Origin: an uncultured Erysipelotrichaceae bacterium
Lineage (GTDB): Bacteria > Bacillota_I > Bacilli_A > RF39 > UBA660
Length of the DNA: 45,702 nucleotides
Reading direction: 5' to 3'
Assembly: GCA_948444795.1 (NCBI GenBank)
Contig: CAOJUX010000007.1
Location: 1-45,702, forward strand
A program made the translations under genes and the position numbers. A model generated the notes under the pieces. It made no database searches and was not told the origin of the DNA. It was given only the letters and a program-made list of their open reading frames with translations. This document shows positions 2,334 to 25,131 of this stretch, piece by piece. Each line of letters begins with the position of its first letter. Position 1 is the first letter of the stretch.

Positions 2334-3866
2334 TTGAAAAAAGAAGAATTAATAAAAACTTGTATTATAACATTTCTAATTGTTGGAATGTTTATAATCG
2401 TAGGATTTACTAAAAGAGATAATGAAAGTGCTAGAGAAGTATATCAAGTATATTTAAATGGCGAAAAATTGGGTTTAATAAATTCTAAAAATGAGCTATA
2501 TGATTTAATTAATGAAGAGCAAAAAGATATTAAAGAGAAATATAATGTAGATACTGTCTACCCTTCAAATGGTTTTGCTATTAAAGAATATAATACTTAT
2601 AATGAAAATATAACTGATGTTAAAAGTATATATAACCAAATAAAAAATGAAGACGATTTTACTATATCAGGATATATTATCAAAATAAAGAGCAAAGATA
2701 AAGATGATGTTAATATTTATGTTACTAGCGAAAATGTGTTTAAAGAAGCTTTAATTAACGTTATTACAGCATTTGTAAATGAAGATGATTATAATAATTA
2801 TATGAATAACAGTCAAAATCAAATTGATGATATTGGTAAAATAATAGAAAAAATGTATTTTGAAGAAACAATAACTATCAAACCATCTTTTATTAGCATA
2901 AAAGAAAAAATATATAATGATCCTACAGAACTTACTAAATATTTAATGTTTGGATCAACAGAAAATCAAACTTTATATAAAATAGCAGAAGGGGATACAA
3001 TAGCATCTATTTCTGAAAATAATAAGTTAAATGTAAAAGAATTTTTAATAGCAAATCCTAAGTATAAAGACGAAAATGCAATGCTTGCAATTGGAGATAC
3101 TGCTAATATTGCCCTTATCAATCCAGTTCTTACTTTAGTAGAAAATCTGCATGTTGTAGAAGACGTAGAACAAGTATATACTAAAGAAGTCGTATATGAT
3201 AAAACTAAACCTAATTCATTTAATGAAATAACTCAAAAAGGTATAACAGGTATTGTACGAAGTACTCAAAAAGTTCAAGTAGTAAATGGTGAACAAAATC
3301 AAGGTGTAGAAAAAATAAGCGATATAACTATTAGAGAAACTCAAAATGAAATAATTACTCAAGGTGGAACTAAACCAATAACTAGAAGACCAAGCGGAGG
3401 AAGTACTCCAATTACTGGAAGTTATATTGATACAGGTCTAGACTGGGGATGGCCAACCAACAGGCCATATATTATAACATCTAATTTTGAATGGCGTTGG
3501 GGGTCATTCCATAATGCTATTGATATTTCTGGTACTGGAATGGGGTCACCTATTTACGCAACAAAAGATGGTGAAGTATTTGAAGTTAATAATACTTGTT
3601 CAAATGTCGGATATTATAGAAGCCAATGTGGTGGATCATATGGTAATTATGTTGTAATAAGACATGATAATGGAATTTATACAATGTATGCTCATTTACT
3701 GAGAAATGTCCCAGTACGTGTAGGGCAAACTGTATCAAGAGGACAAATAATTGGTAGTATGGGAAGTAGTGGTTCATCAACTGGTACCCACTTGCATTAT
3801 GGGGTTTCAATAGGAACACCAAATAAAGGTGGAACTTGGATAAATCCATGGAGATTATATAGATAA
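2334..3866 (+). CDS. Membrane-anchored M23 endopeptidase with LysM and G5-like domains
   Basis: Probable cell-wall hydrolase that cuts peptidoglycan cross-bridges outside the membrane. Seen in order: a transmembrane anchor (about 7-25), a long spacer, a LysM domain (about 220-265, TLYKIAEGDTIASIS), a G5-like beta segment (about 270-350), and a C-terminal M23 peptidase domain. The zinc motifs are intact: H393 and D397 in HNAID, and the H486-L-H488 pair. The ATG at 2325 touches the AAGGA ribosome site, so the TTG at 2334 (MKKEELIK...) is the better start, giving 510 residues. The stop overlaps the next ATG by one base. The architecture is like that of clostridial wall peptidases; the specific substrate is unknown. 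Confidence 0.85.
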   Translation: MKKEELIKTCIITFLIVGMFIIVGFTKRDNESAREVYQVYLNGEKLGLINSKNELYDLINEEQKDIKEKYNVDTVYPSNGFAIKEYNTYNENITDVKSIYNQIKNEDDFTISGYIIKIKSKDKDDVNIYVTSENVFKEALINVITAFVNEDDYNNYMNNSQNQIDDIGKIIEKMYFEETITIKPSFISIKEKIYNDPTELTKYLMFGSTENQTLYKIAEGDTIASISENNKLNVKEFLIANPKYKDENAMLAIGDTANIALINPVLTLVENLHVVEDVEQVYTKEVVYDKTKPNSFNEITQKGITGIVRSTQKVQVVNGEQNQGVEKISDITIRETQNEIITQGGTKPITRRPSGGSTPITGSYIDTGLDWGWPTNRPYIITSNFEWRWGSFHNAIDISGTGMGSPIYATKDGEVFEVNNTCSNVGYYRSQCGGSYGNYVVIRHDNGIYTMYAHLLRNVPVRVGQTVSRGQIIGSMGSSGSSTGTHLHYGVSIGTPNKGGTWINPWRLYR

Positions 3867-6309: not shown

Positions 6310-6961
6310 TTGGGATAAAGTTTTAGAAATAATTGAAAATAGTGAAGGCTTTCATAAATTTTATAAAGTTATTGAAAATGAATATAATCAAAAAACAATA
6401 TTTCCGCCGAAAGGCTATATATTTAATGCTTTAAAGTTAACTCCATATAAAAATGTCAAAGTAGTTATTGTTGGGCAAGATCCATATCATGGAGAAGGTG
6501 AAGCGCATGGTCTTTCTTTTTCGGTTCGCAAAGGAATAAAAATACCACCTTCATTAAAAAATATATATAAAGAGTTGTATGATGATTTAGGCATAACACC
6601 TCCTGATAATGGAGAGCTTATTAAATGGGCAAAAGAAGGTGTGCTTTTACTTAATGCTGTTTTGACCGTCGAAAAAGATAAACCCGCTAGTCATAAAAAT
6701 TTAGGATGGGAAAAATTAACTGATTATATAATCAAAATTTTAAATAATAAAGAAACACCAGTTGTATTTATTTTATGGGGCAATTTTGCTAAGGAAAAAC
6801 AAAAATTAATAACTAATAAAAATCACTTAATTATTTCATCAGCTCATCCTAGCCCATTTTCAGCCAAATATGGTTTTTTTGGAAGCAAACCTTTTTCTAA
6901 AACAAATGATTTTCTAATTAAAAATAATATTAAACCAATTGATTGGGATTTAAAAAGCTAA
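6296..6961 (+). CDS. ung: Uracil-DNA glycosylase
   Basis: Removes uracil from DNA as the first step of base-excision repair. The 221-residue family-1 enzyme has the water-activating motif GQDPYHG (catalytic D62), the uracil-binding segment GVLLLNAVLTV, and the minor-groove loop HPSPFSA (catalytic H184). Length and order of motifs are normal. A purine-rich ribosome site (AAGAAGGAAG) lies inside the end of the upstream membrane-protein gene. A terminator shared with the convergent lemA follows. Confidence 0.97.
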   Translation: MIGNDWDKVLEIIENSEGFHKFYKVIENEYNQKTIFPPKGYIFNALKLTPYKNVKVVIVGQDPYHGEGEAHGLSFSVRKGIKIPPSLKNIYKELYDDLGITPPDNGELIKWAKEGVLLLNAVLTVEKDKPASHKNLGWEKLTDYIIKILNNKETPVVFILWGNFAKEKQKLITNKNHLIISSAHPSPFSAKYGFFGSKPFSKTNDFLIKNNIKPIDWDLKS

Positions 6962-8649: not shown

Positions 8650-9817
8650 ATGAAAAAATTTGAAAAGAATAAAAAACTAAAATACACCCTCCTAAGCGTA
8701 ATAGCCCTAGTCCTAGTACTGGGGGGGGGGTATTTTAGTATATAGAAGTTTTGCATTATTTGAGGTAAGTAAAACATTTAATATACTAGAAGGAAAAGTA
8801 CCAAACTTTACCAAAGGAGATATAACTTTAGCAGTACTTGTAGATGGAGTAAAACAAGAAGAGTTTCCAGATAAAAATGGTCATAGATATGTAGGATATG
8901 ATTGTAATAACGATGCAACAGTAGATGTAACATATGATAGGGAAATATCAAAATGGAAGGTTAATCTATCAACTACTGATCCCACAATATGTACTTTAAA
9001 ATTTGAAAGTTATACAAGTAGAAATTTAATAGAAGTTTTAAAAGAGACAAATGAATTAGTAAAATTCACCCATGAAGATACAGAACAAACAGGAAGTAAT
9101 ACCAATATAGATTATAGATATACAGGAAAAGATCCTAATAACTATGTTTTATTTAATGATGAGTTATGGCGAATAATAGGAATATATAATACAGATGATG
9201 GAACTGGTAAATATGAGGAAAGAGTTAAATTAATTTCTCAAAACTTAGTAACTCATCAAGGATGGACAACCGATAACAAGAATGATTGGAGTAATGCATC
9301 GCTTCAAAAATACTTAAATGGCGAATATTATAATACTTTAAATGATTCTGCTAAGAAAATGATAGGAAATGCAAAATGGTATCTAGGAGGTTTTGATGGT
9401 TACTCAATAATTCCTAAAGAAATATATGAAGTAGAGAGAAGTAATAATGTATATGGCACTAATACTAAAAACTTGATTGTAAAGATGGGCTTACCCTATG
9501 GTAGTGATTATGGTTTTGCTATTAATGATAATACTTGTTTAAATTCTAATATGCATGATTGGCATGGCAATAATTATTGTGCACTTAATAATTGGATGAT
9601 GCAAGTTTCGAACAGTTTGTGGACTATCACTCAAAATACGAGTTGTAATTATTCAGTTTTGGCTTTAATTGAAAGAGAAGCAGGATTATTTTATTTTTGT
9701 GATAACTCTAGTGTTTATCACTATGCAGTATATCCCACATTATATCTTAGTCCTGATACCATAGAAGTAGATGGATCTGGAACAAAAGATAATCCATATA
9801 TATTATCGCTAGAATAG
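8650..9817 (+). CDS. Surface protein gene with ten-G tract, currently out of frame (candidate phase-OFF)
   Basis: A strong promoter and AGGAGG ribosome site lead to MKKFEKNKKLKYTLLSVIAL, a signal/anchor segment. At 8721-8730 ten consecutive G shift the frame and translation stops a few codons later. With nine G the frame continues unbroken to 9817, giving about 388 residues: LVYRSFALFEVSKTFNI, then GDITLAVLVDG, then a domain with ELWRIIGIYN and MIGNAKWYLGG, ending GSGTKDNPYIL. The intact remainder argues against ordinary decay. This layout is common in exported proteins of gut Bacillota; function is unknown, probably surface exposed. The piece from ATG 9359 alone is only the C-terminal part. 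Confidence 0.75.
8721..8730 (+). repeat. Homopolymeric G10 tract (OFF)
   Basis: Ten G in an otherwise very AT-rich gene, placed at the end of the membrane segment. Nine (or 6, 12) G restore the frame; ten or eleven lead to stops within a few codons. Confidence 0.9.
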
Positions 9818-24249: not shown

Positions 24250-24279
24250 TTGACAAATTAAAAGTTAATGTAGTATTAT
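24250..24279 (+). promoter_or_regulatory. Promoter of the lytic transglycosylase gene
   Basis: TTGACA (24250-24255), 18 bases, TATTAT (24274-24279). It lies a few bases after the previous stop codon. Confidence 0.6.
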
Positions 24280-24309
24280 ATGCAACAATGTCAAAGAGGG
24301 GGAATATAT

Positions 24310-25131
24310 ATGAAAAAAGGGACGTTAAAGAAAAAAAGAAAAATGTTAAAACTAAAAAGATATGCGCTTAGCTTTTTATTAGGTACATGTATTGTTGCGC
24401 AAGCATCTATAAAAAACAATAACTCTAATATAAGTTATGCATTAGATGTGTCTAAAAGTACCGAAAATCCTTCCTGGGGGGGGGGTAGCCTTACCATAGA
24501 TAAAAAAGGTAAAGAACTAGCACAATATTATAAAGAATATATAGAATTTAATAAAAATTATAATATTAAAGATGAAATAGACGAAGTTCAAAACTTAACT
24601 GCTGGAATAAGTAGAGAACAACTATTAGATTTAGTATATGAAAGAGAACCAGATTATGGGTTCCCTTGTAGTCTTGATTTACAAAAACATATCAGAAATA
24701 TAGCTGATAAATATGAAGTCCCTTTTGAAGTAATAATGATTCTTTTAGATCAAGAGTCAAATGGTCATTGGAAAGATAATGGTAAAATATCTCCAACAAA
24801 TGATTATGGACTTGCCCAAATACATTACACAGTATTGCCGCTTGTCCAAAAAGGAACTGGACTAACCAAAGAGCAAATTTTAAATGACCCTTATGCAGCA
24901 GCAGAAGCTTGTGCGTATATTGTTAAATATACATGGGGCTTTCTAGGATATGACTTAAATAATTTTCATTATTTAAATACATTTGGTTCATATTGTGCTT
25001 GGATAGATTGGCAAAAAAGCCCAGAAGCTAGAATTTACGCCGATAGTTGTATTAAAAGACTAAAAGAGCATTTTTGGCTTACTGATGAACAAGTTAATGA
25101 TCCAAAACTTTATAGAAGTTATACAAAATAG
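24310..25131 (+). CDS. Secreted SLT-type lytic transglycosylase with in-frame G10 tract (candidate phase-ON)
   Basis: Predicted to cleave glycan strands of peptidoglycan, forming anhydromuropeptides. It has a basic N-terminus and signal segment (about 18-33, ALSFLLGTCIVAQAS), a low-complexity stretch with W56-G-G-G coded by ten G (24476-24485), then an SLT-like domain (about 120-260) with catalytic E149 in LLDQESNG and YGLAQIHY (the usual GLMQI). GAGGGGG supports ATG 24310, not 24280. Loss or gain of one G would stop translation near residue 60, before the enzyme domain, so expression may vary between cells. Confidence 0.82.
   Translation: MKKGTLKKKRKMLKLKRYALSFLLGTCIVAQASIKNNNSNISYALDVSKSTENPSWGGGSLTIDKKGKELAQYYKEYIEFNKNYNIKDEIDEVQNLTAGISREQLLDLVYEREPDYGFPCSLDLQKHIRNIADKYEVPFEVIMILLDQESNGHWKDNGKISPTNDYGLAQIHYTVLPLVQKGTGLTKEQILNDPYAAAEACAYIVKYTWGFLGYDLNNFHYLNTFGSYCAWIDWQKSPEARIYADSCIKRLKEHFWLTDEQVNDPKLYRSYTK
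24476..24485 (+). repeat. Homopolymeric G10 tract (ON)
   Basis: Ten G inside the coding region after the signal sequence. With ten, the frame is open; with eleven a TAG follows at once, with nine a TAG follows four codons later. Confidence 0.9.

Follow-up and report, generated by a model that had tools for sequence, protein, structure and literature searches.

We found an in-frame run of ten G residues (G10) in the gene for a predicted lytic transglycosylase (LT), and we consider it likely, with a probability of about three in four, that this tract is a contingency switch operating by slipped-strand phase variation as in Campylobacter and that it belongs to a genome-wide set. The gene lies in the window, by which we mean the whole stretch of 45,702 nucleotides that was analyzed. 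A frame calculation at the tract, the abundance and lengths of similar tracts in the genus, and a bias in their reading frames all bear on this proposal.

The lytic transglycosylase gene and its tract

Reading of the sequence placed the tract at positions 24476-24485 of the forward strand, where it spells codons 56-59 (W56-G57-G58-G59) of a gene at 24310-25131 (+). The open reading frame around it extends from 24280 to 25131, and the likely start is the ATG at 24310, which is preceded by a ribosome-binding site (AGAGGGGG, 24295-24302, +) seven bases 5' of it. Further upstream is a promoter-like TTGACA-18-TATTAT motif (24250-24279, +), which itself contains no G tract. The predicted secreted product of 273 aa is ON as assembled. 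It opens with a basic, then hydrophobic, N-terminal signal or anchor segment (24310-24441, +), in which a basic stretch is followed by YALSFLLGTCIVAQASI; a helix is predicted over residues 3-37, and the extent of the segment was set by eye. The tract sits in the subsequent linker, which is poorly conserved among relatives in a 7-row alignment, and the C-terminal part is occupied by the SLT domain (Pfam match at 24691-24930, +).

By frame calculation, a G9 tract leads to a stop after three codons and a G11 tract leaves zero codons before the stop. The original prediction had stated that the in-frame G10 lies between the signal sequence and the catalytic domain, and that one base more or less ends translation early; position, frame, and translation agree with the former, and the zero to three remaining codons with the latter. 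The LT gene thus combines two of the features expected of a slipped-strand phase-variable gene, a homopolymer far above chance length and a frame that ends upon the gain or loss of one base. Only 35 of the 460 glycine codons in 22 open reading frames of the window are GGG, so the all-G spelling of three glycines is not the usual codon choice. The neighboring genes are glycolysis genes and spo0A. No evident prophage was found in the gene neighborhood, and a search for the exact tract region among viral contigs gave no matches.

The reading of the protein as a GH23-type lytic transglycosylase, though a prediction from sequence and modeled structure, is sound, based on three kinds of evidence. 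The Pfam SLT domain (PF01464) scored 22.1 bits against a curated cut-off of 21.3. In a structure model built from a 15-row alignment, most of the C-terminal domain (residues 121-260) was predicted with a pLDDT above 90, and Foldseek placed the model closest to the solved structures of Slt, Slt70, MltE, and MltC (one match with E < 0.001, the rest near 0.001). Finally, E149 (codon at 24754-24756), S161, G167, Q170, and I171 were invariant in the 7-row LT alignment, and the S..GL.QI motif was invariant or nearly so. We take E149, in an E-S motif, to be the catalytic acid, and the downstream S..xDYGL.QI motif to be the GH23/SLT signature.

The LT is an accessory enzyme in the genus. The SLT family is present in 9 of 22 genus genomes, as a single copy in the source genome, and a related LT in 6 of the 22. 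No tract was found at six LT loci in five further genus genomes, nor at 13 loci in 12 further genomes from a draw of the order (loci that partly overlap the genus set); the LT tract is absent from every other LT locus found. In known phase-variation systems, tracts are often lineage-specific, and conservation among orthologs is not required. Homologs encoding WGGG with mixed glycine codons would have spoken against a switch, and here the relatives have no WGGG at all. Scanning named genome contigs with the LT protein alone returned nothing, while a 3-row LT alignment recovered two loci, both in MAGs labeled "uncultured Bacilli bacterium" from a "Lapin" set; these two named genus relatives are probably from rabbit. 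A candidate case in another genus (L079), where an LT seemed to be driven by a phase-variable promoter, was rejected, as a promoter-like site of the LT's own follows the upstream gene.

Long G runs and their frames across the genus

The window contains six overlapping G8 matches, compared with 0.06 expected from shuffles. The source genome (1.46 Mb in 74 contigs, 81% complete with 5.8% contamination) contains 88, corresponding to 32 runs of at least G8 (26 G10, 4 G9, and 2 G8), and the possibility that few or no other long runs exist genome-wide, which would have counted against the original prediction, can be set aside. In 223,688 bases, which were picked around long runs so that only the gap at G6-G7 is informative and not the share of G8 and above, we counted 148 runs of G4, 46 of G5, 4 of G6, none of G7, 2 of G8, 4 of G9, and 26 of G10. 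Based on this gap, the long G runs are a separate class; they are not a product of chance. Runs of at least G9 occur in all 22 genus genomes, and an exact G10 run occurs in 115 of 288 genomes from a wider draw of the order.

We read every tract of at least G8 in four genus genomes, namely the source genome (32 tracts), G011 (44), G012 (60), and G017 (36). The 172 tracts comprise 128 G10, 24 G9, 11 G11, 8 G8, and one G48; the last, at a contig end (L174:1859-1906, G017:C37), is probably an assembly or two-colour sequencing artifact. Tracts occur within reading frames, within the spacers that separate -35 from -10 hexamers, and in the leaders of a family of surface proteins.

In the source genome, this surface-like family has 16 leader copies and one leaderless copy, found at 8650-9817 of the window and at loci L032-L058; there are about 47 leader copies in G012 and 28 in G011. 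The leader reads MKK-EKNKKLKYTLLS-ALVLGGGILVYRSFALFE, and promoter and leader are near-identical among copies while the C-terminal parts are very different. The member in the window (8650-9817, +) carries the second G10 tract at 8721-8730 (+), which is out of frame (OFF) and breaks the frame, so the window does contain two tracts of the same length, one ON and one OFF, as originally described. Fifteen of the 16 leader tracts are G10 and one is G9; of the 13 that can be scored, 12 are OFF and the G9 copy is ON. In the leaderless copy (L054), homology to the family begins exactly at its G10 (3561-3570, - strand), and this copy may be a silent cassette or mark a joint left by recombination.

Eight other tracts of the source genome lie inside single genes: the LT, an acyltransferase, two TPR-repeat genes, a Fic-domain protein, a gene with a sub-threshold choline-kinase match, and two others. 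As assembled, four are ON and four are OFF, the latter at G8 or G9. Four more tracts fall in promoter spacers, flanked by -35 and -10 hexamers with at most one mismatch each, ahead of genes for a lipoprotein-like protein, a pseudopilin-like protein, and two proteins of unknown kind. One G10 in a promoter spacer (L052:3509, - strand) precedes a gene with a prepilin N_methyl motif; another promoter G10 (L057:3459, G000:C42:5658) follows the MutS_V match of mutS at a distance of 234 bases and stands ahead of a gene of unknown kind. The remaining tracts are intergenic or near contig ends. There are several such loci, and they are enriched for surface functions: half of the 32 tracts belong to the leaders of a single surface-like family, and polysaccharide-type genes are among the carriers in G011. 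At one place in that genome (L113, G011:C3:34401-54400), seven tracts within 20 kb accompany genes for membrane acyltransferases (Acyl_transf_3), a cluster that probably serves surface polysaccharide. The original prediction had envisaged a genome-wide contingency system coupling surface coat and wall remodeling; the genome-wide set is there, but the coupling is not supported, and the tracts look independent of one another.

For each coding tract we determined the frame phase, defined as the length modulo 3 that joins the upstream to the downstream frame; the observed tract length was not used. Among scorable non-leader coding tracts of the four genomes, 19 of 20 were in frame at 1 mod 3, as at G10 (P = 1.2 × 10−8 at one third), and 17 of 18 after removal of one member per homologous pair (P = 9.6 × 10−8). 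The one exception was a G012 tract (L181). Leader tracts behaved in the opposite way: 90 of 91 scorable ones, which are paralogs and therefore not independent counts, were in frame at 0 mod 3 (G9) and one at 1 mod 3, so that G10 means OFF. As assembled, 80 of these 91 are OFF and 11 ON. These counts omit 13 leader tracts whose frame could not be scored, mostly at contig ends, and 48 of the 68 non-leader tracts, which lay in promoters, between genes, or at contig ends, or had an upstream frame below 60 bases; five of the omitted tracts with a short upstream frame had phases 0, 2, 0, 0, and 1. The pattern defining the leader class was chosen after the flanks had been seen, and separate clustering gave about the same groups, except that two G011 acyltransferase tracts joined the leader family.

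At the commonest length, single genes therefore appear to be framed ON, and the large surface family OFF. With one modal length and a class-specific phase, single genes, this LT among them, would be ON by default and the surface family OFF by default. We are evenly balanced over a broader proposal, in which there is a single G10 set point at which single genes, the LT included, are framed or spaced ON with rare OFF cells, surface families with dozens of copies are OFF so that few members are displayed per cell, and it is the phase of the flanks, not the tract, that is under selection.

Promoter spacers hold 25 of the 68 non-leader tracts of the four genomes, compared with 1.1% of random places, and in 14 of the 25 the spacer at G10 would be 17 or 18. 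In G017, a thymidylate synthase gene with an in-frame G10 has another G10 in the promoter-like spacer before it (L162:1847-2762 and 6338-6939), and a guanylate-kinase-like gene with an out-of-frame G9 lies nearby. The idea of a phase-variable core thymidylate synthase was rejected, as the gene is not core: it occurs in just 4 of the 22 genus genomes, and 3 of these matches exceed the cut-off.

Outside the genus, we read 45 tracts in genomes of three other genera by a rule fixed beforehand (21 of 21 in G233, 13 of 41 in G180, and 11 of 34 in G116), none of which was a scorable single-gene tract. In the G180 family, 11 of 13 tracts could be scored, with an ON phase of 0 mod 3; G10 is out of frame there, which fits a default of OFF. 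The G233 and G116 tracts lie mostly in dispersed repeats that have no long reading frame (L227-L246 and L257-L266), and not every G10 run is therefore to be read as a gene switch.

A putative switch and its alternatives

In the mechanism we propose, replication slippage would add or remove one G at the LT tract. Cells with G10 would make the full secreted LT, whereas G9 or G11 would bring a stop right behind the signal segment, and since the frame breaks at that point, no active enzyme would be left. The same type of tract would act at about 30 other places in the source genome, in frames and in promoter spacers. The frame at modal G10 would set the usual state, with single genes ON in most cells and OFF in a minority, and the surface family mostly OFF with a minority ON; the LT would usually be ON, and a minority of cells would be OFF. 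The assembled genomes, one per species, show the position, frame, abundance, and class-dependent frame bias of the tracts and their lengths from 8 to 11; slippage in living cells, the switching rate, and any benefit are inferred. Near-identical paralogs of one genome differ in length (G9 versus G10, with flanks 95-97% alike), lengths from G8 to G11 occur within the family of G012, and two species at 68-73% identity share the tract position within a Fic-domain gene. These length differences and the shared site support slippage and maintenance.

Less wall cutting may alter muropeptide release, sensitivity to phage or lysozyme, or the assembly of surface structures. The most likely benefit, which is a guess, would be that a minority of the cells differs from the rest in wall turnover or in the release of muropeptides when phage or host attacks. 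Mismatch repair, which would lower slippage at mononucleotide runs, looks present in the genus judging by its genes (mutS in 20 of 22 genomes and mutL in 22 of 22). Given these genes, unlike in Campylobacter, switching rates may be lower, and loss of mismatch repair as the cause of the tracts was rejected. The source genome has two mutL matches (G000:C27 and G000:C38); contig C38, which also bears a G8 tract (L056), may be a contaminant.

The sharp mode at G10 (128 of the 172 tracts) would also be expected if length were fixed and RNA polymerase or the ribosome slipped at the tract, giving a set ratio of full to truncated product. Leader copies of three other species are likewise almost all G10 and out of frame, and read-through would explain the open downstream frames in dozens of out-of-frame copies. 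Such programmed slippage is nonetheless unlikely: lengths of 8, 9, and 11 occur among close paralogs, single genes, being in frame at G10, have no need of it, and many tracts lie in promoter spacers. Somewhat less probable still is that the LT tract is a static glycine linker and the surface family alone varies. The LT is ON as assembled and its linker is poorly conserved, as this would predict, but the rarity of GGG, a tract length equal to the genome mode, and relatives without WGGG all argue against it, as do the other tract-bearing single genes of the source genome that are OFF at G8 or G9 (four of the eight).

We give little credence to the view that G10 runs mark boundaries of recombination or of mobile repeats, with secondary effects on frames. 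It would account for the leaderless surface copy, whose family homology begins at the tract, and for the frameless repeats of G233 and G116; it sits poorly with single-gene tracts that share no common flanks and with the strong frame bias. That the tracts are homopolymer artifacts of assembly is scarcely credible. The G48 run does stand at a contig end, and some contigs terminate in or close to a tract, but tracts of the same length recur in contig interiors of separately assembled genomes from 22 species, and their frames and promoter spacing are coherent. Slipped-strand switching remains our preferred reading of the LT tract.

Significance and comparison with known systems

The most familiar poly-G contingency loci come from pathogens, among them Campylobacter and Neisseria, and promoter-spacer homopolymer switches are known from Neisseria opc and porA and Bordetella fim, where the spacing between -35 and -10 is altered. 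Poly-G phase variation as such is already well known; what appears new is a dense system in uncultured Bacilli, with an LT as putative target and a frame that depends on gene class. Our searches of the open literature (titles and the starts of abstracts) found no phase-variable lytic transglycosylase, and nothing was found in the open literature on phase variation in RF39 or on homopolymeric-tract phase variation in uncultured gut Bacilli. The accessible part of one paper names LTs, and there not as phase variable (PMC10327513). If true, a dense poly-G system in uncultured, spo0A-bearing Bacilli would widen the range of settings in which random switching shapes microbiomes, and with the LT as a target, chance would decide from cell to cell on the turnover of the wall or the release of muropeptides. 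The rule on frames, which reads the default state from phase and modal length, can be applied to any tract-rich genome.

The closest comparison is with C. jejuni, for which the accessible text of one study gives 29 loci with poly-G or poly-C of at least 7 and, by length, 257 G8, 214 G9, 431 G10, 77 G11, and 9 G12 loci analyzed (PMC4965091). As in that species, G10 is the commonest length here, tracts lie within frames, and surface-modifying genes are affected. The present system differs in its phylum, in the large surface family that is out of frame at the mode, in its many promoter-spacer tracts, and in having mismatch repair genes, which are absent in C. jejuni according to the portion of a second study available to us (PMC5530802). 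The original prediction had called a phase-variable peptidoglycan lytic enzyme unusual; the word suits a lytic transglycosylase, yet among peptidoglycan hydrolases there is a precedent, since the same portion describes C. jejuni pgp1 as a peptidoglycan hydrolase gene switched by frameshift and adds it to the phase-variable genes (PMC5530802). Pgp1 is a DL-carboxypeptidase, as far as the accessible text states (PMC3961634). In both cases a wall-cutting enzyme would be switched by frameshift, with the difference that the enzyme here is a predicted lytic transglycosylase. The pgp1 tract is of the short poly-A type. Like the switches of Neisseria opc and porA and Bordetella fim, some tracts here lie in -35/-10 spacers and would change their spacing; unlike in those switches, promoter and coding tracts coexist here in a Bacilli lineage, and the LT promoter is free of a tract.
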